Shown: in pieces, positions 2,873 through 25,113 of the stretch
Layout of the letters: each line of letters begins with the position of its first letter
Position numbering within the stretch: the first letter of the stretch is position 1
Assembly (NCBI RefSeq): GCF_042453785.1
Contig: NC_091673.1
Location: forward strand, 3,107,501 to 3,171,500
Reading direction: 5' to 3'
From: Malus domestica
Lineage: Eukaryota; Streptophyta; Magnoliopsida; Rosales; Rosaceae
DNA length: 64,000 bases
Program-made: the position numbers and the translations under genes
Notes under the pieces: generated by a model
The model's input: the letters and a program-made list of their open reading frames with translations, nothing else
Databases searched by the model: none
What the model was told of the DNA's origin: nothing

Positions 2873-4506
2873 TTAAGAAGACATGCATTTTTTGCCATCT
2901 GACGAGTAAATGAGTTTACTTTGAAGGGCTTGGTATTTAGGCGACACTGCAGCCAAAATTACAATGCCGCTGACCAATGCCAGCCCCAGTCCCAAACTAT
3001 TCACAAGCATCGACTCGGTACAGTGTTTAGACACATTCCTCTTCGTTTGTAAGAATGTCAACTTCTCCAAAAGCCCCGTTTCTGCAGTTGCCACAGCCAG
3101 ACCGTACGTGTAGAGTCCAAGGAAGATGTGCCACGGCAACACCCTTAGCCTCACCGAGCGCACTTCCCCTCGATGCCAGAAGCTCAGGAACCCCATCAAC
3201 CACTGCAAATCAGAAATCTAATAAGTATTGCCCTCCTTTGTTTTTTTTTTTTTTTACACAAGGAGCATGAACAAGTATTGAGCCTATTAACCACGGCAAC
3301 AGTAAGGTCGAGGGACGTTTGTGGCTACTTCTAAGATGAGCGACACTTCTGTTTATAACTGCGTCAAAATTTTTATTAAAAATTCAAGTGCTTCACGATG
3401 TAGCATCTCTATAAAGCACTTTTACTATCCGAAAACATTTTAGCACCTCCGTAAAGCGCATTTACTACGTTTTTAGGTTATATTAATAATTGCTTTCCTC
3501 TGGCCCATTTGATAAATTATTTCACTGATATGATTGAGGGTTGATGCTACTGTACAGTCAAGATGGCCTACATGCTTCCTAAACCTCCAAATCAGTAATT
3601 ATCCTAAAAATAAATATTGCTTTTGTGATTAAACCGCTATGTTAAACAACAATGTAGTTTCCCATAAATCAAATAATTGCATCAAATATGAGTTAAATTT
3701 AGAAGTATGAAGAATTTACCTGAGCTCCAAACAAGAGGATGCAGATCAACCCCATCCAAGAATGCAAACTATAGAAATTAGACACCATGCCCTTCTTCCC
3801 TTGAAATTTAGTCCAAATCCCAACTATCCCGGAAGCCAAAGCCACGCCTTGAAGGCACAAATGCACTGATTTCTTCAAACTCCTTGAACCAGGCAACCAC
3901 CTATGGATCAAAATTGCTGCAGAAAATATAACAAAAATAAATAAAATATTCAAAACCCAACTCATAAAAGTGTCTCCTTTTATCAATGGGAAATGATTTC
4001 CGTACACATTTCCCGTTTATTTCTGTCCGTTGATTCTTCTTTGATTCGTTCAATCGAAAGACCAGAGATAAACACGCATGCAAAATGGAGAAAATGGGTG
4101 TGTGGAAATCACTTCTCTTACCAACTGAAGGGTTTGCTTCAATTTTTAAACATGTTGCTAAAAAACTTCCATTACCTTCTCCACTAATGAGAATAAACCC
4201 AATGACCATGAACAGAGGATGAAGAGCCTGCAAAAACAACAACCACCCTTTTCAAATTTTTTAGCTTCAAGAAATGATCAATTGAGATATTATCTGGGTT
4301 TTGAGAGTAAATTAAGAGGTGTGAATAGAAGGAGTGGAGAGGATTCATACTGAATAAATGAGGCCTTGGTCTTCTTGTGGGGAAGAATGAGGAAGGAAGC
4401 TGGACTTGAAGGAGAAAGCCCAGAAAATGACCAGAGCTGCAACTGCAAGCCCTGAGATTCTGGCAAAGAAGAGGAGTGGAACTAGTGATGGTGTGACTGT
4501 CGCCAT
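2873..4506 (-). CDS. Cytochrome b561, probable transmembrane ascorbate ferrireductase 4-like
   Basis: Four exons (4351-4506, 4176-4227, 3720-3916, 2873-3202) join in phase to a 244-residue protein, the normal length for the family. Cytochrome b561 proteins move electrons from ascorbate across a membrane to ferric chelates or monodehydroascorbate. The four expected heme-ligand histidines are visible: H55 (ALHPLFMV), H88 (KKSVHL), H121 (YSLHSWMG) and H160 (LPWHIFLG). About six hydrophobic helices surround them. The sequence closely resembles what I recall of Arabidopsis At1g26100, including GEVRSVRLRVLPWH and ATAETGLLEKLTFLQ. The start MATVTPSL at 4506 fits the family; an in-frame upstream extension does not. 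In Arabidopsis the next gene is DCP5, also present here but about 20 kb away. Confidence 0.93.
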
Positions 4507-4691
4507 GGATTTGATACTTGCAGCTCCAACACTCTGAGAGCGAGAGTCAGTGCACCGACAGCTGAAGTCTAGATCTACTTTGGCACAAAATACTGGCAAT
4601 TTGCGCAAAAGTTGCTTTCTTTCTCGAATTTCATTATGCGGAAAAAACAGATGCTTTCACTCAAAGACTGTCCCACTACACGTTCTTTTCA

Positions 4692-4836
4692 AGGGAATAT
4701 TAAAATTTTGAATTTTAACGATAAAAGTAAAATAAAAAATAAAATAAATAGTATCAAGATTAATTTTTTAGTGTAAAAATATGATTTTTCGTTAAAATAA
4801 ACAGTACCGAAAGTTTTTTGTTAAAATTCCCTTCTT
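4692..4836. repeat. Short MITE-like repeat, family K, copy 1
   Basis: About 145 bp bounded by imperfect inverted ends (AAGGGAATATT and AAAATTCCCTT). The core carries TAACGATAAAAGTAAA, TTTTTAGTGTAAAAATATG and TTTTTCGTTAAAATAAACAG. The same core recurs at 37675-37821, 38009-38164 and 46403-46556, the last two in the opposite orientation. It is noncoding. Confidence 0.7.
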
Positions 4837-4872
4837 TTTAAGGCTTTTTCGTTTTTTATGCAATTTCTGTTT

Positions 4873-4971
4873 GGATAATGCTTGTATTCTCCCGTGCAGA
4901 ATTTCTTTGTTTCGCATTATTATTAAATGATGGAACAAGAGGTTTCGCCGTGAAAAAATACAAGCATTATC
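4873..4971. repeat. Short Tourist-like MITE, GGATAATGCTTG ends
   Basis: A 99-bp element starting GGATAATGCTTGTATTC and ending CAAGCATTATC, a near-perfect inverted pair. It looks like an internally deleted member of the family found as three longer copies between 50189 and 51633. Confidence 0.6.
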
Positions 4972-6056
4972 TTTTATGTTTTCATTTGGTGTCTCAAGTT
5001 ATTCTATTTCGTCAAGTTGGTTGAAAAATAATTGATAATTTGACACTTAAAGAATTAGAGCCATAAAACAGAAAAATGCCAAGTTTCAAGCAAACCGACA
5101 GGTCCAAATATGTCAAATTAACAATTTCATAGACAAACTTGACGAAATAGAGTAACACGAGACACAAAATAAAAGATTTGTTAGTCTGCTAGTTGCATAA
5201 GAAAGATCAAGTACTGTATTAGGGCTGTTCTCAGTGGTTTTTTTTTTTTTGTTTTGTTTTACTTTATGGCTTTTTACTCTCGACTTCTCGGAGTTTGATG
5301 GCCGATAACCCTTGTTAACCCTAGCTAGCATACAACCTTGATTTCTAGTAACATGCCAGCTAAGGAAAAGGACACTATTCGGCATTTTATATGTGCGGAG
5401 TCATTCTTACTTGTATGTGAATTTATATCTGATACATATTACTATAGTGATTAAAAGTATGTTTGATATTGCTTTTAAAAAGGGCTAAAATCACTTTTAA
5501 AGAGCTAAAAATGCTTCTGAATTTGAGCGAAAAAACTTAAAAGTGTTTCTGTATCATAGAAGCGCTTTCTAAGTGCCCTTTAGGAAGTACTTGGAGTTTT
5601 ATTAAAATTTGTGGCGCAAACAGTCCCAAACCAGCCCTAACTGGTTAAATTGATGAATTGTGATATGGCCAAAGTTTTTTTCCATTGTACAATCAATTTA
5701 GGTTATACAGCTTGTCTTATCTTTGTATAAAGTATCTATATGCCTTGCTAGGTGCCCTATACAGTATTTTTCTGTATATTATTCTGTGTTTGGTGGTGAC
5801 TGACTTAGTAATTATCATACATTTTTTATAACTTCTAGTCTCAAATTTGGAATGAGGATCTTCTCCGGATCCTCTTTGTGGGGATTTTGGAGATCCTTCA
5901 ATCATGTATGTTGTGTTCACACGTACATTGTGCGGTTAATTTTTGTTAGTTACTGTTTATATTTAATTTTAAATAAAAAATTTACAATAATTTATGGTCG
6001 CACGATATACGATGAACGGATGTGATTGGAGGATTCTTTAAATTCTCACAAAGATA

Positions 6057-6227
6057 GGAAATTTTTAGTTGTGACGGAAACACAAGTGGTACACCACGTG
6101 TTTTAATAGAAATGGTGAGAAATTTTATTTTTGAAGTTATTAACTTTTTAGCACACATATCTCACCATTTGTTTAGTGACACGTGATGTACCACATCGTA
6201 TACCGATCACACCGAAAAATCTCTCTA
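6057..6227. mobile_element. MITE inserted in the copy-A promoter only
   Basis: About 171 bp absent from copy B. The ends form a long imperfect inverted repeat: GAAATTTTTAGTTGTGACGG at the left against GAGATTTTTCGGTGTGATCGG on the reverse complement, followed in both arms by GTGGTACACCACGTG-like sequence. The flanks (ACAAAGATAG and ACAAATAG) resemble a target-site duplication of about 9 bp, so a Mutator-like MITE is likely. The insertion lies about 150 bp upstream of the TATA box. Confidence 0.7.
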
Positions 6228-6382
6228 CAAATAGGATTCGGAGAATCCTAATTCCAAATTCGAGGTACCTCCGCAAACATAACCAATAAAAAAAGAATTA
6301 TTGCGTCGTATTTCAACATATAGCAAGCAAAATGACATACAAAGCATCCAAAATCAGCCGGTGAGTATCATATCCCCACCAC

Positions 6383-6391
6383 TATATATAA
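6383..6391 (+). promoter_or_regulatory. TATA box of the copy-A dioxygenase gene
   Basis: TATATATAA, 63 bp upstream of the ATG at 6454, is conserved in sequence and spacing class in copy B. Confidence 0.55.
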
Positions 6392-6453
6392 CCCCTTCGA
6401 ACCTAAACACAAACACGCCCATAAATAAATACCAAGTTAGAGAGAGAGAGATT

Positions 6454-8020
6454 ATGGAGCCCTTCACCAAAGACTTCAAAGTAGGAGAGTGCGAAGGCCA
6501 AAAGGTGGTGGATGGTGAGACCATGCCACTGGTGCTGCAGCCTCCAGCACCCGAAAACAACGATGTGGAGTCACTTATTTTGGCTCTTCAGAAGAACAAG
6601 GACTGGTTTGATCAGATGCTTCTCAAGAACAGCGCTATCCTTCTCCGAGGTTTCAATGTGCAGAACGCTGAGGAGTTCAACGACATCATAGAAACCTTCG
6701 GTTGGGATGATATTCGCTATGTAGGACCGGCGCCAAGAACTCATGTGCACAAGCGAGTTTGGACTGCAAATGAAGGACCTCTCTCAGAGTTCATATACTA
6801 TCACCATGAGATGGTCTTGGTAAGTGCATATATATACATCACCATGAAAAATCATCATATTTCTAGGGACATAGGTTGTCAAAAATATTGGAGGAGTCTC
6901 CTGGCAGTTTCATTTCTGTTTTCTTAGGTGACAAGGCTCGGCCTAGAATGGTTGTTTCTTGTAACCGAAAAACAAAAGAACTCGTTTTTGTTGCATTAGG
7001 ATCGGAGACAGGTATCGAATTCATCGCTAGGAAGTGTGAAATTGATCATGTTTTCTGCAAACATATACTGTGTCAGTTGCTTCCCTTCCCATCACCAAAG
7101 CACAGAGAGATTAATAAGTTAATTAACTGTCATATATCTTGATTTAAGCAAACATTTTTTACTTGAATTTTTTAAGCCAAGTCAAAACATGGACTCATTC
7201 CAACCTCAGTATGTTTCCTGCAAACATGGACCGATGACTCTTGTATCGTAAACTAAAATTCGAAGAGTTGACTCTATATAATTAATTAACCCTAATTGAC
7301 TATGTCTAACTAATTAATTAACCTGCAGATTAAGGAATATCCCAAAAAGGTCATCCTATTCTGTGAGATACCTCCACCAGAAGGCGGACAGACCCCATTT
7401 GTTCCGAGCTTCCGAGTGACGGAGAGGATGCTGGAGGAGTTCCCGGAAGCTGTGGAAGAATTGGATGCAGGTGGCTTGAAATACACCTTCACAGCACCAA
7501 GTAAGAACAGCACAGGTTCTATGAGGGGCAGGGGTTGGGAGGATACTTTTGCCGCATCAGACCGTGCAGAAGCTGAAAAAAAGTAATACATTCATATTTT
7601 AGTATATTATATAATGTGTCGATCGACATCATTGTCACCAGCTAAAATGGACAGTGTTTGTTTACTTGTGGCAGGGCTAATGCTTTAGGCATGGACGTCG
7701 AGTGGCTATCAGATGGGGGAATCAAGACGATATTAGGACCGAGGTCGCTGACGAAGGTGTTTGAAGGAAGAAAAGGGAGGAGAATGTGGTTCAACACGAT
7801 GGTAGGCATGCATGGGAAGGAGAACAGCTCGGCCCTGATGGCGGACGGGACCGAGATTCCGGCAGAGCTGGTGAACAGATGTGAGCAGATAATCGAAGAA
7901 GAAAGCATCCAGTTCAAGTGGGAGAAGGGTGATGTTCTCTTCCTTGATAACCTGGCTTTGCTTCATGGAAGAAGGCCTTCTCTTGCTCCCAGAAGAGTCT
8001 TGGTTGCCACATGCAAGTAG
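6454..8020 (+). CDS. TauD/TfdA-family Fe(II)/2-oxoglutarate dioxygenase (clavaminate synthase-like), copy A
   Basis: Exons 6454-6819, 7329-7582 and 7675-8020 give 321 residues. The protein resembles Arabidopsis At3g21360, a clavaminate-synthase-like protein of known fold but unproven substrate. Visible hallmarks are the iron-binding H117-x-E119 (in YHHEM, an HxE rather than HxD variant), the distal H304 (LLHGRRP), and R313/R314, one of which should bind the 2-oxoglutarate carboxylate. ILLRGF, GGQTPFV and GDVLFLDN are further family blocks. No targeting peptide is evident, so a cytosolic place is likely. Splice sites are canonical; the second intron splits a Lys codon. The encoded protein is identical to copy B; the five exon base differences I find are all silent. 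The 5' UTR has a short GA run. Confidence 0.92.
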
Positions 8021-8642
8021 AGATCTCAAGATATGATTACCACAATATCTTCTACTTCCATCAAAGTTGTATGCAACTATGCATGCTATGCATTTACAAT
8101 TAAGCTACTCGATATCGGAGTCATTAAAGTACGTATATGTAATAAGATCTCAATTTGTGATTTCAAATTCAATTGGGTGAACTTGAAAGGCATGAATATG
8201 ATATGCAATTAATTGGGAAAGAAATAAACACTTAATCTATGTGCTTTTATTTTGTGTCTCGTGTTACTCCATTGATTAAAATTTTATTCATTTTCAATTT
8301 TTGATCAAGATTTTTAGGTTTTAATAAACATCATTAATTATTTCAATAATAAAATATTTTTTATTTCTAATATATTCATTTAGTGTTAGAAATTTTACAT
8401 TTGGTATATTTATTTTTATGACTAAATTTGTTATCAAATATTTTTATTATTAGTTTGTACCTATTTTTAATTTGCAACCTTTTTTTTTATTTGTACCAAT
8501 TTTCTTTTCAGTTTTAATTTGTACCTGTTACATCCCACATCGCCCAGGGGTGAGGATCCTCTAAACCTTATATGTAAATTCTCATATCTACCTAGCACGA
8601 GGCCTTTTAGGAGCTCATTGGCTTCGGGTTCGGTAGCAACTT

Positions 8643-13035: not shown

Positions 13036-13040
13036 GGAAC

Positions 13041-13376
13041 TGTTGATGCACAAAACCGGAGGTCTTGGAACAACGTAAATCCGACCGTGAATCTGCATGA
13101 AATGTAAATAACACAAGATGTATCGTGGTTCACCCCAATGTTTGGGCTACGTCCACACTGATTGTATTATATTTCTCTGTTGAAGAGGGAGAGAGAGCTT
13201 AGAGCTTAGGGGATGTGAGGAGGCTTAGGGTTTATGAGGGTGAGGATGCCCTTTTATAGAATAAGGGCTCATCCCCTAATTACATATTTGCCCATTCCTT
13301 TATTACATAATTACATTTAAGTCTATCGAGTATTTATATGAGATCTAAATACGAGGCCCTAAATATGGTATAAACA
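13041..13376 (-). repeat. 3' LTR (in element orientation) of the gene-carrying retroelement
   Basis: TGTTGATGCAC to TATAAACA on the plus strand, a direct repeat of 18870-19205. The sequence TTTTATAGAATAAGGGCTC inside it recurs with variation at about 13600, 13725 and 13800, so parts of the LTR-proximal region have been tandemly copied. Confidence 0.92.
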
Positions 13377-14173
13377 GTAGTCCCCCAAGTCTTCAGTCAA
13401 TAGAGTCTTTTGGCTGGAGACTTGAAATTCAGTCCATGTGTGGGCCGAAGTAACTAGATGTTGTCTTGAACTAATGCTCGATATGAGGCGGTGCTCAATC
13501 TGAAATGATGCACAACTAGAAGTAGCACATGATGCTAGGCTGCTCGGCTCGTGGCTTATGTTGCCTTGGTTAGCTCGGCTTGTGGCGTTGAAGGTGAGGG
13601 AGTCCCTTTTATAGAATAAGGGCTCGCTCCTCAATACATGAATGATGGGCTAGAGTGATACTCGCGGCGAGGCGGTTGCTCAGCTGGCGGCGTTGCTCTC
13701 TAATGATGGTGAGGGAGTCATTTTTATAAAATAAGGGTTCGCTCCTCAGTACATGAATAATTGGTGCTCTCTAATGAAAGTGAGGGAGTCCCTTTTATAG
13801 AATAAGGGCTCGCTCCTCAATACATAAGTAATGGGTTAAGTCCCTCAAATATTTTTCATGAGGCCCAGTTGAGGCCTAATATATGGTACATAATGTAGTC
13901 CCCTAAGTCTTCGGTCAATAGAGTCTGTTGGCTGGAGACTTCAAATTGAATCCATGTATGGGCCGAATGGGCGGTTGTTCGGAGGTGGTATTTTTATACC
14001 CTGCACTGAAGCTTTGTAGGTGAAGCTTTGCAAGTGAAGCTTTAAAGCTGGAGCTCTGTAAATGAAGATTTTGAAGCTAGAGCTTTTGTGTAAATGAAGA
14101 TTTTGAAGCTAGAGCTTTTGTGAATGAAGTTTTTGAAACTAGAGCTCTGTAAATGAAGTTTTTGAAGCTAATT

Positions 14174-14413
14174 GACATGAGTGATACTCATGAATGTTTA
14201 TGTTGATTGACATGAGTGATGCTCATGGATTTTGTCATGAGTGATGCTCATGAATGTTAACATGAGTGATGCTCATGAATGTTGACATGAGTGATGCTCA
14301 TGAATGTTGACATGAGTGATGCTCATGAATGTTTATGTATGATTGTCATGAGTGATGCTCATGAATGTTAACATGAGTGATGCTCATGAATGTTTATGTA
14401 TGATTGTCATGAG
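14174..14413. repeat. Tandem array of a CATGAG-N5-CTCATG hairpin unit
   Basis: About nine units of 23-35 bp, each holding the perfect palindromic arms CATGAG and CTCATG around TGATG or TGATA. The ninth unit is cut by the element at 14414-15505; it is completed at 15506 and a tenth unit follows at about 15540. Upstream (14010-14170) is a related array of GAAGCTTTGAAG/AAATGAAG units. Confidence 0.8.
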
Positions 14414-15505
14414 CATAGATGAAAATATCGATAATATCGGCGAAATATCGCCGATATTATCGTTTTTTTCATATAACGATATTTCGTGAGTATTTCTTTA
14501 ATTATCGTTATAATATCGCGAGATAAACCTAAAAATATTTGAAAATTTCTGAAAAGTCTCAAACTTGCACATAAAGGGATTCGAACCCCTCCCATCTAAC
14601 TCCTTCAGCGCCTTGACCACTATACCACTTACGTTTTTGTGAAAACATGCTAAACTATTTATATATATGGTTTTGTTTTGAATTCTTTTTGCAAGAAACA
14701 AATTTGCCCATATTCCAAATTTTTTGTGGTATTATATTTTAAATTGTGTCAATTAATTACTTAGTCAATGGCATGTGGTTTTTAATTTTTCTATTTTTTA
14801 TTTGGTCACTTATATGTATGGTTGGAAAAAATTCCCGAAAATCCCAAACCAAACCAAAAAAGTCCCAAACCAAAACCATCCCGAAAAATACCGAAATTTT
14901 CGATATGGGATTGGTTTCCAAATCCCATTTGTTTGGTAATCCCGAAATCCCAAAAAATACCGAAGTATTCGGTTTCCTATTGACTTTTGGGTTTCGGTTC
15001 TTGAAAGCCATTGTCATGGTTGCTGACTACTCTTCACAATACACTTACTCTACACATAGAGATGATGAAGATAGTGAAAATTTTGAACCTCATAGGAACT
15101 CTATGTGGTACTTAGTCACTCATGTATCTTACCATGCAATGTATAAAGTGTAAAATATTGTACTAATTCATTATATATAAATGATTATGGTGTGTTTAAA
15201 CTTCTTTCATTAATTACTACATATTTTCTACACTCACAATGTTTGCCAGCTCGCTATATAATCAACTTAAATCAGTTAAATCCATCATGCAATGCATTTC
15301 CTTTCAATTTTTTGTGATAAACTAATAGATAATTGACTAAATAAACATCCTGCAAAGTTTCAATAAAAATTTCCAAGTTTTTCTTACAATTTCCGTGGTT
15401 TCCATGTAATTTTTATCGATATCGATATTATCCCGATATTTCCATCGATATTTCCGTATTTTCGGACTACCGATATTTCCGATATTACCGATATTTTCTT
15501 CCTTG
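14414..15505. mobile_element. hAT-like nonautonomous element inserted in the hairpin array
   Basis: The left end CATAGATGAAAATATCGATA and the reverse complement of the right end CAAGGAAGAAAATATCGGTA form imperfect inverted repeats rich in GATATTATCG. GTCATGAG, an 8-bp duplication, flanks it (14406-14413 and 15506-15513), fitting hAT. Inside are a tRNA-like relic (14563-14632) and a palindromic TCCCGAAA/TTTCGGGA-type repeat at about 14825-15005. No transposase is seen. Confidence 0.75.
14563..14632 (-). pseudogene. tRNA-like relic (A and B boxes present)
   Basis: On the minus strand, GTGGTATAGTGGTCAAGG is a good A-box region and GGGGTTCGAATCCC a perfect B-box/T-arm. The intervening part does not fold into a clear anticodon arm that I can assign, and no acceptor stem pairs well. 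It may be a tRNA pseudogene or the head of a SINE carried by the hAT-like element. Confidence 0.5.
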
Positions 15506-15564
15506 GTCATGAGTGATGCTCATGAATGTTTATGTATGAATGACATGAGTAATACTCATGTATA

Positions 15565-15906
15565 ATTTGGAGTACTGGGTGTACTTTTGATCACCTGGTT
15601 GGTGGCATGAAAGAGAGTACGGGTTGTACATTTCATCACCTGGTTGGTGGTATGAATGGCTAGTTGCCAAATGATATTAGAGTACGGGTTGTACATTTCA
15701 TCATCTGGTTGGTGGTAATAGCGGCAGGTTGCAAAATAATTTTGGAGTACTGGGCATACTTTTGATCACCTGGTTGGTGGTAATAGCGGCGGGTTGCCAA
15801 ATAATTTTGGAGTACTGGGCATACTTTTGATCACCTGGTTGGTGGTAATAGCGGCGGGTTGCCGAATGATTTTGGAGTACTGGGCGTATTTTTGATCGCC
15901 TGGTTG
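15565..15906. repeat. Tandem array of a unit of about 64 bp (CACCTGGTTGGTGG core)
   Basis: About five units share TTTGGAGTACTGGGCATAC, ATCACCTGGTTGGTGG and TAATAGCGGCGGGTTGCC. The array belongs to the retroelement interior. The hAT MITE at 15907-16729 interrupts the last unit, which resumes at 16730. Confidence 0.8.
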
Positions 15907-16729
15907 TAGGGGTGGGCACTTAAAACCGAAAACCGAAACCGAAACACGAACCAAATCGAACCGCACCGAACGGTTTGGTTTTGCGGTTTTGAAATGGTTT
16001 CGGTTTTGAAACCGAACCGCAACATAGAAAACGGTTTGGTTTCGGTTTTGGCCTTTGAAAACCGCACCGAAACCGAACCGCACCGCAAATATTAATAAAC
16101 ATTTAATTAAATGTCCATATTATATTTCATGTTTTAATTGGTCGTTTGTTAAAATTCATACACTTAGTATGGACTCAACCACACTAGAATATCATCATTC
16201 ATCACTTTCTTTTGTTCATTAACTTGAAGGACCTTTGTTATTTTATACCATCACACACACATATATGTACAAGGGTGGACTAATCTTGTTATCAAGAGTT
16301 GAACAATGATCTACTAAAAGCCACTCATTTGAAGCATGATATCACATATTCTAGTATGAAAATTTCGCTCACGTTTAATGAATTCAAATTTATTCAAATT
16401 GTTTTATGAAAAATATTGTAAGGGACACCTTTTTGTTGCACAAACATGTTTTAACATCACAACTACATGCAACATGCTAATTGTTTACATAACAAATGTC
16501 ATTTTCCTATTACTATTGGGAAATGCTTTTTAATATGTTAAATTGCAAATTGTACATTTTTTCTTAAAAACCAAACCGAAACCGTTTGAAACCGCACCGA
16601 ACCGAACCAAACGGTTTGGTTTCATTTTGGTTTTGGCTTCAAAACCGCACCGAACCAAACCGCAAAAACTTGCGGTTTTGGTTTTGGTTTCACTCAAAAC
16701 CGCACCAAACCGAACCGCGCCCACCCCTA
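15907..16729. mobile_element. hAT MITE with TAGGGGTGGGC ends
   Basis: The 823-bp element starts TAGGGGTGGGC and ends GCCCACCCCTA and is flanked by the perfect 8-bp duplication CCTGGTTG (15899-15906 and 16730-16737). Near both ends it is built of AACCGAAACCG/CGGTTTTGGTT repeats, so each end can fold back. It has no coding capacity. Confidence 0.88.
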
Positions 16730-17179
16730 CCTGGTTGGTGCTATTTTGGGCTCATGGGCCTTCGTCCTCCACAACATGCCAACCCATTTATTTTGGGCTT
16801 TGCCGTTTTTTTTTTTTTTTTTTTTACCCTCTGATGGGGTTTATACATATTACCATCTGATGGAGTTTATACAGATGTCTCCGAAAAATAAAATAAATTA
16901 CATCATTCTAGTGGGGTGTTTATTCCTTACTTTTGTAGTGTCCCCATGTGCCTCTCTTTTTCTTTTCTCTTTTGCAGATGGCAGACAAGGAATGATAAGT
17001 ACATTAATCTTACCTCCGTTTTTGCACTATTTCTCATGATCACAGCCTCCACCACCTCTCCATACTTCCTGAATTATTCCTTGAGCTGTTTCTCATATGT
17101 GTCCCAGGGAATCCCCCTTTTTTCTTTTTATTTTTACTTTCCACTTTCCACTACACCTATGTCTCTATGTTGCTACTCA

Positions 17180-17720
17180 ATCGTGACAAGAAAGCATAAA
17201 GTGATCAGCACCAAGGCTTCGATTCCAAAAGGGATGCTTATCAGAAATGACGTTGACATAGTCGATGACAGCTCATTTGATGGGCTGAGTGTCATGGGAG
17301 TCGGCCACGTATAGGTACTGCATCGACATCACCACGCTGAAGGGAAGAAAATAAACGAGGGCCTCATATGGATCTCTTGTTCTGTAAACATTCTCCATTT
17401 CCATTTCATGGATAAATCTCCCTTCTGTCGAATATATGCTTTTGCATGGACCAGCTGATGACTTTTCTTCAGAGGTGGATGTCTCTTCAGGTGCATGAGA
17501 ATATGTGCTGTTGGAATGTATACGGAAACTTCCAAATTTGAGTGTTTCAGGATGATTGCTTTGAGCATAAACAGGCAGTGGCTTTGAGGAATTTGCTTCA
17601 TTGGGATTTGGAAGAATGGTTTCAGAGCTATTTGCCTCTGAGCTTAATTGGGGAGAAGACGAATCAGCAAATTTTTCATAACCAAGAGCACTAAATGGAT
17701 CTCCTTCAGATGTGCAGGCT
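17180..17720 (-). pseudogene. GT47 exostosin-like fragment carried by the retroelement
   Basis: Reading the minus strand, GRFIHEMEMENVYRTRDP, EALVYFLPFSVVMSMQYLYV and [20 protein letters not shown] are hallmark blocks of plant GT47 exostosin glycosyltransferases (At5g25310/At3g07620 type, Golgi enzymes of cell-wall synthesis). Stop codons interrupt it after HDTQPIK and after LSCHD. The Ser/Asn-rich stretch above 17560 (DSSSPQLSSEANSSET) may be the variable stem region or another source. Only part of the gene is present. Confidence 0.75.
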
Positions 17721-17722
17721 CC

Positions 17723-17947
17723 CTAACCACGTTGATCATTTCTGGCATTGTGTATTCCACTAGGTGAGCCAATGTAAAGGCTGCCTCTCGAAACAACCTT
17801 TTCAGCAACCTCCTCACTGTACCCATGTTCAGCAAACTGCTTAATAGCACTCCGGAAAATTGCTTGCAAATAAGATAGTAGTAGTTCTTCAAGCTGGCAC
17901 GTAATTGGGTCATCCCAATCTGCACACTCAGAAGCTCCCACTTCCAC
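17723..17947 (-). pseudogene. RF298/MIP1-type E3 ubiquitin ligase N-terminal fragment carried by the retroelement
   Basis: The minus strand reads DWDDPITCQLEELLLSYLQA followed by IFRSAIKQFAEHGYSEEVAE and KVVSRGSLY. This is the conserved N-terminal block of plant RING ligases of the RF4/RF298/MND1-interacting-protein 1 group (typically DWDDPIACQLEELL). Only this block is present; the coiled coil and RING are absent, and the frame runs into a stop at about 17725. Confidence 0.78.
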
Positions 17948-17956
17948 TTCTTCTGG

Positions 17957-18124
17957 CTAAACCACCGGAATCCATACAGGACTGTATCGATCTTGTTTGG
18001 AGTCGGATATTATCACCGGAGAATCGAAATGGTGGCCGCAGATCACCACGACGGCGATGATCGACAAAATGCAGAAACGAAGCAGTACGGACGCAGATGA
18101 GTGCTTCACATGGAAGCTCCCCAT
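17957..18124 (-). pseudogene. Unidentified N-terminal fragment with signal-anchor-like helix
   Basis: The frame begins MGSFHVKHSSASVLLRFC and has a strong hydrophobic run (ILSIIAVVVICG) like a signal peptide or type II anchor; it stops after SPVWIPVV. It lies between the HD-Zip and E3-ligase fragments in the same orientation. Type II anchors are typical of Golgi glycosyltransferases, so it could belong to the same source as the GT47 fragment, but this is speculation. Confidence 0.4.
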
Positions 18125-18194
18125 CTCAATTAGTATCAAATGCTTCTCTATTTTGATTTTCTCTCTCTATAGGAATTGAATCGACTGTTTGGTT

Positions 18195-18620
18195 GCCAAG
18201 ATTATTTTTGGAGGTCTCACAATCCTCTTCGTCGTTGAGGCCTCGAGAGCAGTCCCTCTCAAGGTCGAGATCTTCGCCATTGGTGTCTCTCTCGCTCCGC
18301 TTGCCACTCACGGTCGACACGGTGCTGTTGGGGGAGGACACCCCCACTTCTTCTTCGCAATCGCCCGTCGGTGGCAGCTGGTTCACGTCGATGCCCCGCA
18401 GGAACGATCGGGGCCCGCCCCGGCACTTCTCTGAGTTAGAATTTAGATCTGAAGAAGGCAAGGGATCGTTCCATAGGGGCTTTTGGGGAAGAACGCCAGA
18501 AGGGGAAGCAGCAGCAGAAGTTGGGAGGAGAGAAGGCATCAGATTCAGCTGAAAGTGGCTGCCGCTTTGATTGTTATAGGTGTGAGGAAAATTCAAGCTG
18601 AGATCGAGACCCAAACGTGT
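18195..18620 (-). pseudogene. HD-Zip class II (HAT3/ATHB4/HAT4-like) N-terminal fragment carried by the retroelement
   Basis: The minus strand reads LGLDLSLNF, SFLRGIDVNQLPPT, VGVSSPNSTVSTVSGKRSER, DLDLERDCSRG and NDEEDCETS. These are the conserved N-terminal blocks of HD-Zip II transcription factors up to the edge of the homeodomain, including an EAR-like LxLxL. The homeodomain and leucine zipper are missing. The frame is open through the whole fragment, so it could still be translated as part of a chimeric transcript. Confidence 0.82.
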
Positions 18621-18869
18621 ATGCTTCCAAGTGGCTGTGACTTTGGTGCTGCTTTGGTGTAATAGTATGATGGTGACAGATGTAGTAGTCAGATTCACGA
18701 TGCTGCAGTGGTGTAGTAATATGGGTTTTGCAGTAACTGTGTAGGTGTTTGGTTCTTGGGTTTCTGCAGATTCACGGTGGAGTGTGGTGAGGTCTCATGG
18801 TGGTGAGATGGAAAAAATGAAAAAGGACTGACATAGTTTTTCGTGTCGATTCCCACAGACGGCGCCAAA

Positions 18870-19205
18870 TGTTGATGCACAAAACCGGAGGTCTTGGAAC
18901 AACGTAAATCCGACCGTGAATCTGCATGAAATGTAAATAACACAAGATGTATCGTGGTTCACCCCAATGTTTGGGCTACGTCCACACTGATTGTATTATA
19001 TTTCTCTGTTGAAGAGGGAGATAGAGCTTAGAGCTTAGGGGATGTGAGGAGGCTTAGGGTTTGTGAGGGTGAGGATGCCCTTTTATAGAATAAGGGCTCC
19101 TCCCCTAATTACATATTTGCCCCTTCCTTTATTACATAATTACATTTAAGTCCCTCGAGTATTTATACGAGATCTAAATACGAGGCCCTAAATATGGTAT
19201 AAACA
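18870..19205 (-). repeat. 5' LTR (in element orientation) of the gene-carrying retroelement
   Basis: Direct repeat of 13041-13376 with about seven differences. TTTGGCGCC lies immediately inside it on the minus strand, marking this as the 5' LTR. Confidence 0.92.
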
Positions 19206-19210
19206 GGAAC

Positions 19211-20584: not shown

Positions 20585-21575
20585 AAAGATTTGTTAGTCT
20601 GCTATCTGTTGCATAAGAAAGATCAAGTACTGTATTAGGGCTGTTCTCTGTGTTTTTTTTTGTTTTACTTTATGGCTTTTTACTCATCGCCGATAACGCT
20701 TGTTAACCCTAGCTAGCATACAACCTTGATTTGTCGTAACATGCCAGCTAAAGAAAATGACACTATTCGGCATTTTATACGTGCGGAGTCATTCTTACTT
20801 GCATGCGAATCTATATCTGATACATATTACCACAGTGATTAAAAGTATGTTTGAGATTGCTTCTAAAAGGGGCTAAAATCACTTTCAAACACCTAAAAAT
20901 GCTTCTAAATTTGAGCGAAAAAACTTAAAAGTGTTTCTGGATCATAAAAGTGTTTTCTAAGTGCTCTTTAGGAAGCACTTGGAGTTTTACTAAAATTTGT
21001 GGCACAAACAGTCCCAAACGAGCCCTAACTCGTTAAATTGATGAACTGTGATATGGCCAAAGTATTTTCCATTGTACAGTCAATTTAGGTTATACAGCTT
21101 GTCTTTACTTTGTATGAAGTATCTATATGCCTTGCTAGGTGCCCTATACAGTATTTTCCTGTATATTATATTGTGCTTGGGGTGGGGGACTGACTTAGTA
21201 ATTATCATACATTTTTTATAACTTCTGGTCTCAAATTTGGAATTAGGATCTTCTTCGGATCCTCTTTGTGAGATTCTGGAGATCTTTCAATTACGTTCGT
21301 TCATCGTACATTGTACGGTTAATTTTCATCAATTATTGTTTATATTTAATTTTAAATAAAAAATTTACAATAATTTCTGACCACACGATATACGATGAAC
21401 GGATGTGATTGGAGAATTCCCGAATCCTTACAAAGAGGATCCGGAGAATCCTCATTCCAAATTCGAGGTACCTCCGCAAACATAACCAATAAAAAAAGAA
21501 CTATTGCGTCATATAACTAGCAAAATGACATACAAAGCATCCAAAATCAGCCGGTGAGAACCATATCCCCACCAC

Positions 21576-21584
21576 TATATATAA
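21576..21584 (+). promoter_or_regulatory. TATA box of the copy-B dioxygenase gene
   Basis: TATATATAA in the same context as in copy A, 81 bp upstream of the ATG. The added distance is due to the (GA)n expansion between them. Confidence 0.55.
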
Positions 21585-21625
21585 CCCCTTCGAATCTAAA
21601 CACCAACACGCCCATAAACAAATAG

Positions 21626-21664
<39 letters not shown>

Positions 21665-21666
<2 letters not shown>

Positions 21667-23237
21667 GGAGCCCTTCACCAAAGACTTCAAAGTAGGAGAG
21701 TGCGAAGGCCAAAAGGTGGTGGATGGTGAGACCATGCCACTGGTGCTGCAGCCTCCAGCACCCGAAAACAACGATGTGGAGTCACTTATTTTGGCTCTTC
21801 AGAAGAACAAGGACTGGTTTGATCAGATGCTTCTCAAAAACAGCGCTATCCTTCTCCGAGGTTTCAATGTTCAGAACGCTGAGGAGTTCAACGACATCAT
21901 AGAAACCTTCGGTTGGGATGATATTCGCTATGTAGGACCGGCGCCAAGAACTCATGTGCACAAGCGAGTTTGGACTGCAAATGAAGGACCTCTCTCAGAG
22001 TTCATATACTATCACCATGAGATGGTCTTGGTAAGTGCATATATATACTATCACCATGAAAAATCACCATATTTCTAGGGACATAGGTTGTCAAAAATAT
22101 TGGAGGAGTCTCCTGGCAGTTTCATTTCTGTTTTCTTAGGTGACAAGGCTCGGCCTAGAATGGTTGTTTCTTGTAACCGAAAAACAAAAGAACTCGTTTT
22201 TGTTGCATTAGGATCGGAGACAGGTATCGAATTCATCGCTAGGAAGTGTGAAATTGATCATGTTTTCTGCAAACAAATACTGTGTCAGTTGCTTCCCTTC
22301 CCTGCACCAAAGCACAGAGAGATTAATAAGTTAATTAACTGTCATATATCTTGATTTAAGCAAACATTTTTTACTTGAATTTTTTAAGCCAAGTCAAAAC
22401 ATGGACTCATTCCAACCTCAGTATGTTTCCTGCAAACATGTACCGATGACTCTTGTATCGTAAACTAAAATTCGAAGAGTTGACTCTGTATATTCTAATT
22501 AATTAACCCTAATTGACTGTGTCTAACTAATTAATTAACCTGCAGATTAAGGAATATCCCAAAAAGGTCATCCTATTCTGTGAGATACCTCCACCAGAAG
22601 GCGGACAGACCCCATTTGTTCCGAGCTTCCGAGTGACGGAGAGGATGCTGGAGGAGTTCCCGGAAGCTGTGGAAGAATTAGATGCAGGTGGCTTGAAATA
22701 CACCTTCACAGCACCAAGTAAGAACAGCACAGGTTCTATGAGGGGCAGGGGTTGGGAGGATACTTTTGCCGCATCAGACCGTGCAGAAGCTGAAAAAAAG
22801 TAATACATTCATATTTTAGTCTATTATATAATGTGTCGATCGACATCATTGTCACTAGCTAAAATGGACAGTGTTTGTTTACTTGTGGCAGGGCTAATGC
22901 TTTAGGCATGGACGTCGAGTGGCTATCAGATGGGGGAATCAAGACGATATTAGGACCGAGGTCGCTGACGAAGGTGTTTGAAGGAAGAAAAGGGAGGAGA
23001 ATGTGGTTCAACACGATGGTAGGCATGCATGGGAAGGAGAACAGCTCGGCCCTGATGGCGGACGGGACCGAGATTCCGGCAGAGCTGGTGAACAGATGTG
23101 AGCAGATAATCGAAGAAGAAAGCATCCAGTTCAAGTGGGAGAAGGGTGATGTTCTCTTCCTTGATAACCTGGCTTTGCTTCATGGAAGGCGGCCTTCTCT
23201 TGCTCCCAGAAGAGTCTTGGTTGCCACATGCAAGTAG
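21665..23237 (+). CDS. TauD/TfdA-family Fe(II)/2-oxoglutarate dioxygenase (clavaminate synthase-like), copy B
   Basis: Exons 21665-22030, 22546-22799 and 22892-23237 match those of copy A in length (366, 254, 346 nt) and encode the same 321-residue protein, with H117-x-E119, H304 and R313/R314. Exon differences from copy A are two in exon 1, one in exon 2 and an adjacent pair in exon 3, all synonymous. Introns differ at a few more sites. The promoter differs: no MITE, and a long GA run in the leader. Expression could therefore differ between copies while protein function does not. Substrate is unknown. Gene conversion or a recent duplication would explain the identity. Confidence 0.92.
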
Positions 23238-23461
23238 AACAACCATCGATCTCATGATATGATTACCACAGTATCTTCTACTTTCATCAAAGTTGTATGC
23301 AACTATGCATGCTATGCATTTACAATTAAGCTACTCGATATCGGAGTCAATAAAGTACGTATATGTAATAAGATCTCAATTTGTGATTTCAAATTCAATT
23401 GGGTGAACTTGAAAGGCATGAATATGATATGCAATTAATTGGGAAAGAAATAAACACTTAA

Positions 23462-25113
23462 ATTGTGTGTGCATTCCCTATATTATATCTCAAACTCTTA
23501 TTTAAAACTCATAAGCTTACGGCGTGAGACATAAGTACAAGACTTGGGAGATGTTTTTTATTGGATGACCATTCAACATTACGAGAGAAAGAAACACATA
23601 ATTATATACGTGCATATATACAATCAGTAAGTTTTAGAGTAGATGAATCTACAAGTGCCTTCTTCTCCTTCTCTTTCAAACTCAGCTTATTCTTTGGCAA
23701 TCAGCGTCTCACTTGCCCGTTTTCCGAAATCATCTTCAGAGTCTGCACCTCTGGGTTGATCAGCCTTCTTCCTTGTCAGCCATTGCTAATATGTAATCCA
23801 AGTCTCCGGTGGCCGTATAAGATGATGCTGCTTTCGGAATATTGTAGTTCAATAATTCCTTTCTACCACCACTTTTGAAGGCTTATTTAGCTGTTCTAAC
23901 GGAATTTGTGTCTAAAAGAACATTGCTTGTAATGGAAGAGCCCTTATAGTAGAAACCTTAAATTCAAGTTTTTTATGATTTTATGTAATAATTTGAGTAG
24001 GTACAAAATTTTAAAATAATTTAAATTACATTGTTGTAAAATATTTTTGTAAATATTCAACAACAATAAATATTAAATTCACACATCAATTTTTTTTTCT
24101 TCACAGTAACTAGAATGACTTCATTATTGGGTTATGTCATGACATGTGTCATAGCTTATGGCATGGTCAATTTTTATTTTTATTTTTAAAAGGAACAACT
24201 GGTAGCAAGTCACGGTTATCCATAATTTTCAGGTTGGAAAGACTTACAGAGGCATTTCAACATCCCTCTGACCACAAGTCTGGCTTCCTTCAAATTAAAA
24301 ACTGAAGGTCTTGGGTTCGAAACCCGCTGCTGATAGGATTTCAACTCTTTACGATCATTAAATTAAAGTTTCCTGTCTCAATCTCCTCCATTAGATTGTA
24401 TATTTCTTGTTATCATTTCACTTATAAAAGTGAGGTCCTTGTATGTCATACTAATGTCATGATCAATTCTTTCTTATCAATATAAGATTTCAACTCTTAC
24501 AACCATTAGATTAGATTTTCTAATCTAAATCTCATCCGTCGAATTGTTACCTCCTTTTTTAGTCTTCCACCATAAGTCTCCATCTCTTTCCCATTCAACA
24601 TATTTCTGGGAATTGGGTTTTATAATCTGCCGAGAGAGAGGTCATTGATGGTTGAGTAGTCGCCTGCAAGGCCGACACCGGTGCAGGCGGAGGGGTGGGG
24701 TGGTGGTTGGCTAGGGAACACCACACACATTATACATGCAGAATTCTATCCGAGTGACTTTAACCAGGACCAACACCGATATCAGCTACGACTTCAGTCG
24801 AATGCCAATAGGGTCGTCAGTTCAAACCCCCGACTGCCAACGGGTGCCATGAATCAATCAACGAGGAGAAATTAAACAGAAAGTTTTCTTTCACTAAACT
24901 CGGTGCTTCTTGATTTGGTCAATAAAAAGGAATGTCAAGTCAGGTTGAAGAAACACATACAGACCGACCGGCAATTTGATACTGAAAAAAAGGCATTTAC
25001 TTCTACTTATTCTCTGGACAAGCATAAATAAAGAAAAAAGCACAACACTAGCATAGCCCTAAATCTCTTTGCTGTTCTGAAAGGCAAGATGAGGCTTTGA
25101 ATGTTTACCAATA
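23462..25113. other. Spacer downstream of duplication copy B
   Basis: No supported gene. A tRNA-like B-box (GGTTCGAAACC, about 24316) followed by A+T-rich sequence hints at an old SINE near 24240-24360 but is too weak to call. Sequence near 24660-24860 is G+C-richer and unassigned. Confidence 0.5.

Follow-up and report, generated by a model that had tools for sequence, protein, structure and literature searches.

How does a retroelement come to carry pieces of several unrelated host genes, and is such an element an isolated accident or one product of a recurring process? The stretch analysed here (the window) is 64,000 nucleotides (nt) of the apple genome (Malus domestica, assembly GCF_042453785.1, contig NC_091673.1, forward-strand positions 3,107,501 to 3,171,500). 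At positions 13041-19205 of the window lies a long terminal repeat (LTR) retroelement on the minus strand, running right to left, and its centre holds pieces of five host genes, all in sense: an HD-Zip II gene, two GT47 paralogs, RF298 and an RRM gene of the type found in heterogeneous nuclear ribonucleoproteins (hnRNP). An earlier note on this DNA had proposed at least three unrelated donors; the capture of unrelated genes stands, but the count is five, since the second GT47 paralog and the RRM piece had been overlooked. We consider it very likely that the element belongs to a non-autonomous LTR retroelement family in which constant LTRs, primer site, short leader and repeat-rich 3' block enclose a copy-specific mosaic of host RNA pieces, 1.4-2.4 kb long and made by template switching.

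Host gene pieces in the window element

From its 5' end the element reads leader, HD-Zip II, GT47 paralog A, RF298, GT47 paralog B, RRM and conserved 3' block. Its own genome (651 Mb, 19 contigs) was searched with window positions 17000-18640, and the best 40 of 50 candidates were scored, giving 48 matches. The HD-Zip II piece (18199-18615; this and the following pieces are all on the minus strand) is N-terminal, has its intron removed, is 93 and 91% identical to C6:7930964-7931700 and matches Pfam HD-ZIP_N at 2.1e-26. The RF298 piece (17453-17966), which has two internal losses and whose tail is spliced, is 96, 92 and 96% identical to C3:35788499-35789150; at the protein level it shows 77-81% identity over 77-78 amino acids to four RF298-type proteins of Malus and Pyrus, and a second stretch shows 87, 68, 86 and 63%. 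GT47 material comes from two paralogs, as seen in a protein comparison (76% to P0016, 91% to P0018). Paralog A contributed 5' untranslated region and N terminus (17956-18209; 85% to C15:9353497-9353722), and paralog B, the one at 91% to P0018, a piece at 17168-17452 (93% to C10:621352-621636). Exostosin_GT47 is matched at 6.2e-13 with stops read as X, and by the open piece alone at 0.013, below the cut-off. The RRM piece (17022-17115) matches RRM_1 at 5.3e-6 and is 91% identical to an exon-sized match on C11. Identity of the cargo to its closest loci thus ranges from 85 to 96%, and the loci on C6, C15, C3, C10 and C11 are the donors or close paralogs of the donors. The captured pieces contain stop codons and frameshifts.

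Among the matches listed for this search, the whole mosaic occurs at no other place. Single pieces do recur: the HD-Zip piece is also found in two elements, on C1 and C2, which share 652 bp (94.8%) with each other; the RRM piece is common to the window element and six other copies; and a 59-bp RF298 tail links the window element to one of those six. Moreover, the same HD-Zip junction appears at 94% identity in P0122, a protein predicted from reads (RNA or DNA) assembled into a 927-base contig; at least one further copy with this join, slightly diverged, thus exists. Separately, the HD-Zip-like matches L051, L052, L053, L054, L057 and L058 were considered as family members and assigned to another multi-copy repeat, whose copies agree at 97-98% over kilobases and which has a 124-bp HD-Zip-like piece (about 84%) without the LTR or leader of the mosaic family.

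Constant ends and copy-specific centres

The window element is bounded by a perfect GGAAC target site duplication (13036-13040 and 19206-19210). Its 3' LTR (13041-13376) and 5' LTR (18870-19205), both on the minus strand, are 336 bp each and differ by 7 substitutions with no gaps (97.9% identity). A primer binding site, TTTGGCGCCGTCTGTGGGAATCGA, lies directly inside the right LTR (18846-18869), and a polypurine tract, CTTGGGGGACTAC, directly inside the left one (13377-13395). Both read on the minus strand, which places the element on that strand and rules out a plus-strand reading; both recur in 15 other copies, the primer site at the equivalent position, and each is altered in some. The longest stop-to-stop frame is 222 amino acids, so there is no intact gag-pol, and a Pfam scan of the centres gave no gag or pol domain, the 3' blocks not having been scanned whole. 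Lacking gag-pol of its own, the element is non-autonomous. The earlier note had described these LTRs, the duplication, the primer site, the polypurine tract and the absence of gag-pol, and had placed HD-Zip II, RF298 and GT47 pieces on the LTR strand; all of this was confirmed.

An LTR search, in which the best 40 of 3,654 candidates were scored, sampled those family members whose LTRs come closest to that of the window element. Of 20 regions fetched, we kept the 15 in which two LTRs point the same way; five others (L021, L022, L023, L025 and L026) were dropped as inverted, single or cut. With the window element this makes 16 complete copies of 3,901-6,255 bp, with LTR identities of 0.931-1.000 and perfect target duplications in all except L020. 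The 15 other copies share with the window element the paired LTRs, primer site and polypurine tract of an LTR retrotransposon, as well as the short leader and the 3' block. Coverage by the 15 others was counted for each copy: over the first 50 bases behind the LTR it amounts to 13-15 in 14 copies and to 6 and 10 in the remaining two, over the 3' block it is mostly 15/15, and over the centres mostly nil. Whereas the ends align at about 90% and more, the centres (1,385-2,361 bp) do not align: the longest match between any two is 138 bp, and matches lie mostly near the ends, with one internal match of 94 bp (L013/L014). The family ends match at several tens of loci in the searches with the LTR and with the centres of L009 and L016 (best 40 each).

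These copies, with their own target duplications, support the mobile family that the earlier note had envisaged. Its expectation that other copies would share the same captured fragments failed in the 15 examined; beyond these, only a minority of loci have single pieces in common with it or, for the copy L009, a whole mosaic. It had also allowed that the fragments might be colinear neighbours, or that the LTRs might flank a segmental duplication with no other copies and no shared target-duplication logic. Neither proved true: the best-matching donor loci are spread over several contigs, and a segmental duplication of neighbouring genes is ruled out by these loci and by the target duplications of the window element and of the other copies.

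What do the other centres hold? For each of the 15, all three sense frames were scanned against Pfam (E<=0.01); the window centre was scanned in other cuts. Host domains were found in sense in 11 of the 16 centres. In the 15 others there are 16 separate domain stretches, spread over 10 centres; ten are above the Pfam cut-off (AAA, K-box, RINGv, Band_7, ANTH, RING, GH3, Biotin_lipoyl, Cyt-b5 and Ank) and six below it (SWIB, TPP_enzyme_N, Pkinase, 2OG-FeII_Oxy, Methyltransf_7 and bHLH-MYC_N). As a control, none of the 48 antisense frames of the 16 centres gave a Pfam domain.

Donor loci were searched for three centres, those of the window element, L009 and L016, and donor-like loci were found for all three, the cargo being 85-99% identical to present host loci. 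The L016 centre was found once (best 40 of 101 candidates scored). Among the matches listed for L009 (best 40 of 494 candidates scored) are two siblings of its centre, one on C2 (97%) and one on C3 near 4.125 Mb (97-98%). Missing from the C3 sibling are exactly the 123 bp GTGAGT...ACAG; it sits behind a more distant LTR, 77-100% like that of the window element in the aligned pieces, the figure for L009's own LTR being 97%. Upstream of the C2 sibling the sequence is different, and no LTR lies within about 700 bp. Loci on C15 and C9 share only 3' parts of the L009 centre. With these siblings and recombinant loci, at least one mosaic has been copied, spliced and recombined. L009 also contains, at 3411-5064, a third, internal LTR (77%) and a second set of 3' arrays.

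The age of these insertions bears on whether the family is active. The LTRs of the window copy have diverged by K = 0.021; at the grass substitution rate of 1.3e-8 this copy would be about 0.8 million years old. With this 2.1% divergence, the active status proposed in the earlier note was not borne out for the window copy; in one other copy, L009, the two LTRs are identical.

Probable traces of spliced RNA and rival explanations

The joins within the mosaics bear on how they arose. The HD-Zip donor-like locus reads CTTCTTCAG/GTTTGT...GCATGCAG/ATCTAAATTC, and the element joins the two flanks exactly, with the 317-bp GT-AG intron gone. Relative to its locus, the RF298 piece lacks 98 bp, GTAAAG...TTTGCAG (GT-AG), and 70 bp ending in AG, and its tail departs from the locus at GAAGAG/GTAACC. 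The ANTH piece of L016 lacks 97 bp, GTCCGC...TACAG (GT-AG), and the RINGv piece of L009 departs from its locus at AACAA/GTAAGT. Two junctions between pieces fall within sequence found in both donors: GT47A/RF298 inside the 11-nt GGTGGTTCAGC, and ANTH/RING of L016 inside the 9-nt CATGGATAT. Assuming random bases, the chance per junction of a shared stretch of at least 11 nt is about 2e-6, and of at least 9 nt about 3e-5. Together, the GT-AG losses and the microhomology junctions bear the hallmark of template switches by reverse transcriptase among spliced RNAs.

Several observations weigh against such an origin. The losses of 98, 97 and 70 bp fall within coding sequence, which rules out ordinary exon/intron loss and points to cryptic splicing; we read the RF298 and ANTH gaps as exitron-like. 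The 70-bp loss starts with AT in the donor locus of this genome, and would fit splicing only if the template began GTA, as P0005 and P0019 suggest. Of the remaining junctions with DNA on both sides, one shares 3 nt and the other falls in an A-rich run, so that only two reach 9-11 nt. Five of the 16 centres (L011, L012, L017, L019 and L020) gave no Pfam domain in the sense scan. Finally, the GT47B piece extends 9 nt beyond a GTAACA site in its donor, where one template at least seems not to have been spliced, and the RING piece of L016 has lost 145 bp that are not GT-AG, with only 2 nt in common at the ends of the loss.

The last two points would be explained if genomic fragments had been joined in the element by DNA repair or nested insertion, as in Pack-MULEs and Helitrons. 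Such capture at the DNA level was already strained by the spliced HD-Zip piece, and with the exact GT-AG losses, the spliced sibling of L009 and the empty antisense frames we consider it improbable. Sense and spliced cargo would equally result if transcripts had run from the element into neighbouring genes and carried flanking RNA along, and a 2026 review classes the Bs1 element under transduction (PMC13317346). One copy, however, combines pieces matching loci on several contigs, and the pieces are internal and joined within 9-11 shared nt, so that read-through seems to us a still poorer candidate. The least probable of the three is a single ancestral capture followed by decay and recombination, with the centres now looking different through age. 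It would accommodate the pieces that are shared (RRM with six copies, HD-Zip with two elements, and some of the L009 cargo), but the ends of the same copies still align where their centres do not, and the cargo remains close to present host loci.

We therefore return to template switching between RNAs, which could proceed as follows. We infer that element RNA would be packaged with host transcripts in particles supplied by a gag-coding partner. During minus-strand synthesis, reverse transcriptase would jump from element RNA to host RNAs, mostly spliced ones, and back, at short shared sequences, and the chimeric complementary DNA would integrate. The mosaics would then be transcribed, and their RNAs, after splicing by the host and recombination with further element RNAs, would be inserted again; in this way cargo may be gained, trimmed and exchanged over cycles, with capture presumably ongoing.

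A candidate helper, further features and related systems

A 30-base pattern spanning the LTR end and primer site occurs at 4,613 places, with 0 in the control. Eight of these were fetched, all from the first 100 listed, which are perfect matches on C1: seven are alike and form a gag-type family, and one (L077) is of the mosaic type. Because 7/8 sampled places are gag-type, 4,613 was dropped as a count of the mosaic family. Two of the seven were scanned and both match Retrotrans_gag (L071, 6.8e-12; L074, 4.3e-5); in L071 (C1:56373-58200), where the same primer site precedes it, the gag frame has no stop in the 608 codons read. Two gag-type LTRs were compared with the mosaic LTR: they have in common with it a block of 47 bp (81-83%) as well as the end, of which 15 bp are identical in one of them, and between the two families the primer region corresponds over 26-27 bp. 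We suggest this gag-coding family as a candidate helper and L071 as a candidate autonomous partner. Placement of the mosaic family in Ty3/gypsy would rest on the primer site shared with this Retrotrans_gag-carrying family, the mosaic family having no reverse transcriptase of its own.

Outside the cargo, the window element consists of a leader (18641-18869, minus strand), of which the first 60-150 bp or so are common to the family, and a conserved 3' block in three minus-strand parts: partial LTR-like duplications with 25/30-bp tandem arrays (13377-14415), also present in other copies; a 65-bp tandem array (15508-15906); and the beginning of the shared 3' half (16730-17000). Two later insertions lie in this half. 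One, an inverted repeat at about 14413/14416 to 15507 (ends approximate), is not in the 3' block of the 15 other copies; it sits within the 25-bp tandem array, has ATATCG-rich inverted ends and a possible TCATGAG duplication, ambiguous because the array itself contains TCATGAG. The other (15907-16729) is, from its letters, a miniature inverted-repeat transposable element with TAGGGGTGGGC ends and the 8-bp duplication CCTGGTTG, which we take to be hAT-like. The retroelement as a whole sits between the two copies of a duplicated stretch (5172-8243 and 20585-23469; 96% over about 2 kb and 87% over a further 0.9 kb), whose gene, by reading alone, is a TauD/clavaminate-synthase-like oxygenase.

Pack-MULEs and Helitrons are mobile families whose copies hold different joined host gene pieces, as do those of the apple family; in contrast, the apple family has LTRs and 5-bp duplications rather than terminal inverted repeats with long duplications or Helitron ends, and its sense-only cargo with removed introns points to passage through RNA. 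Large retrotransposon derivatives have LTRs of several kb, against 336 bp here. Bs1 of maize is a low-copy element. Like the window element, it is an LTR element that holds host gene pieces (of three genes, with a chimeric open reading frame) and no full gag-pol (PMC13317346); the host pieces in the window element are likewise exon-only and in sense, except for the 9 intron-like nt in GT47B. Bs1 is, however, one mosaic, whereas the 16 apple copies have 16 different centres, besides spliced and recombinant siblings. Gene-carrying terminal-repeat retrotransposons in miniature, such as GmaRetroS15 of soybean, have LTRs, 5-bp duplications and exon-only pieces of up to three genes; the 30 elements in seven subfamilies measure 1,172-1,449 bp, and mostly several copies have the same cargo (PMC4717578), whereas the apple copies are of 3.9-6.3 kb and their cargo is copy-specific. 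Full-length LTR elements contain host genes in rice (672), sorghum (1,343) and maize (424), reported per gene over many elements, and the accessible text describes no family with a variable multi-gene centre (PMC3726574). Veju and BARE-2 are chimeric elements that arose by switching between packaged RNAs (PMC13317346), in that account between retroelement or unknown sequences rather than with host mRNAs. Transduced genes are described in a review of additional open reading frames as present in one or a few copies, usually in gag-pol sense (PMC7264820). No family with copy-specific multi-gene centres was found in the literature covered, which excluded preprints and most subscription papers. This suggests that, while Bs1, the miniature gene-carrying elements and the grass captures are known already, copy-specific multi-donor mosaics within one family are apparently new.

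We lean, with less assurance than for template switching itself, towards regarding capture as a standing property of the family and not an accident. Replication would then habitually copy several host mRNAs per lineage, the centre would be exchangeable filler of 1.4-2.4 kb between fixed end and packaging signals, and the genome may hold host-exon mosaics in the hundreds, independent, in sense and driven by LTRs, with cargo being taken up, spliced and traded between cycles. Gene annotation may be touched as well. In P0243, an annotated protein of Malus domestica, a SAM-synthetase start (S-AdoMet_synt_N) is joined to an AAA-ATPase, and two more annotated proteins (P0242 and P0245) match the AAA part of L009 behind different starts. 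Exon shuffling through RNA by LTR elements has so far consisted of isolated cases and gene counts. A family with different, datable, multi-donor mosaics, in a genome that also contains the matching host loci, allows the mechanism to be counted, in its switch sites, its choice of donors, the splicing of element RNA and the rate of new chimeric transcription units, and such a family may act as a natural gene-shuffling machine.

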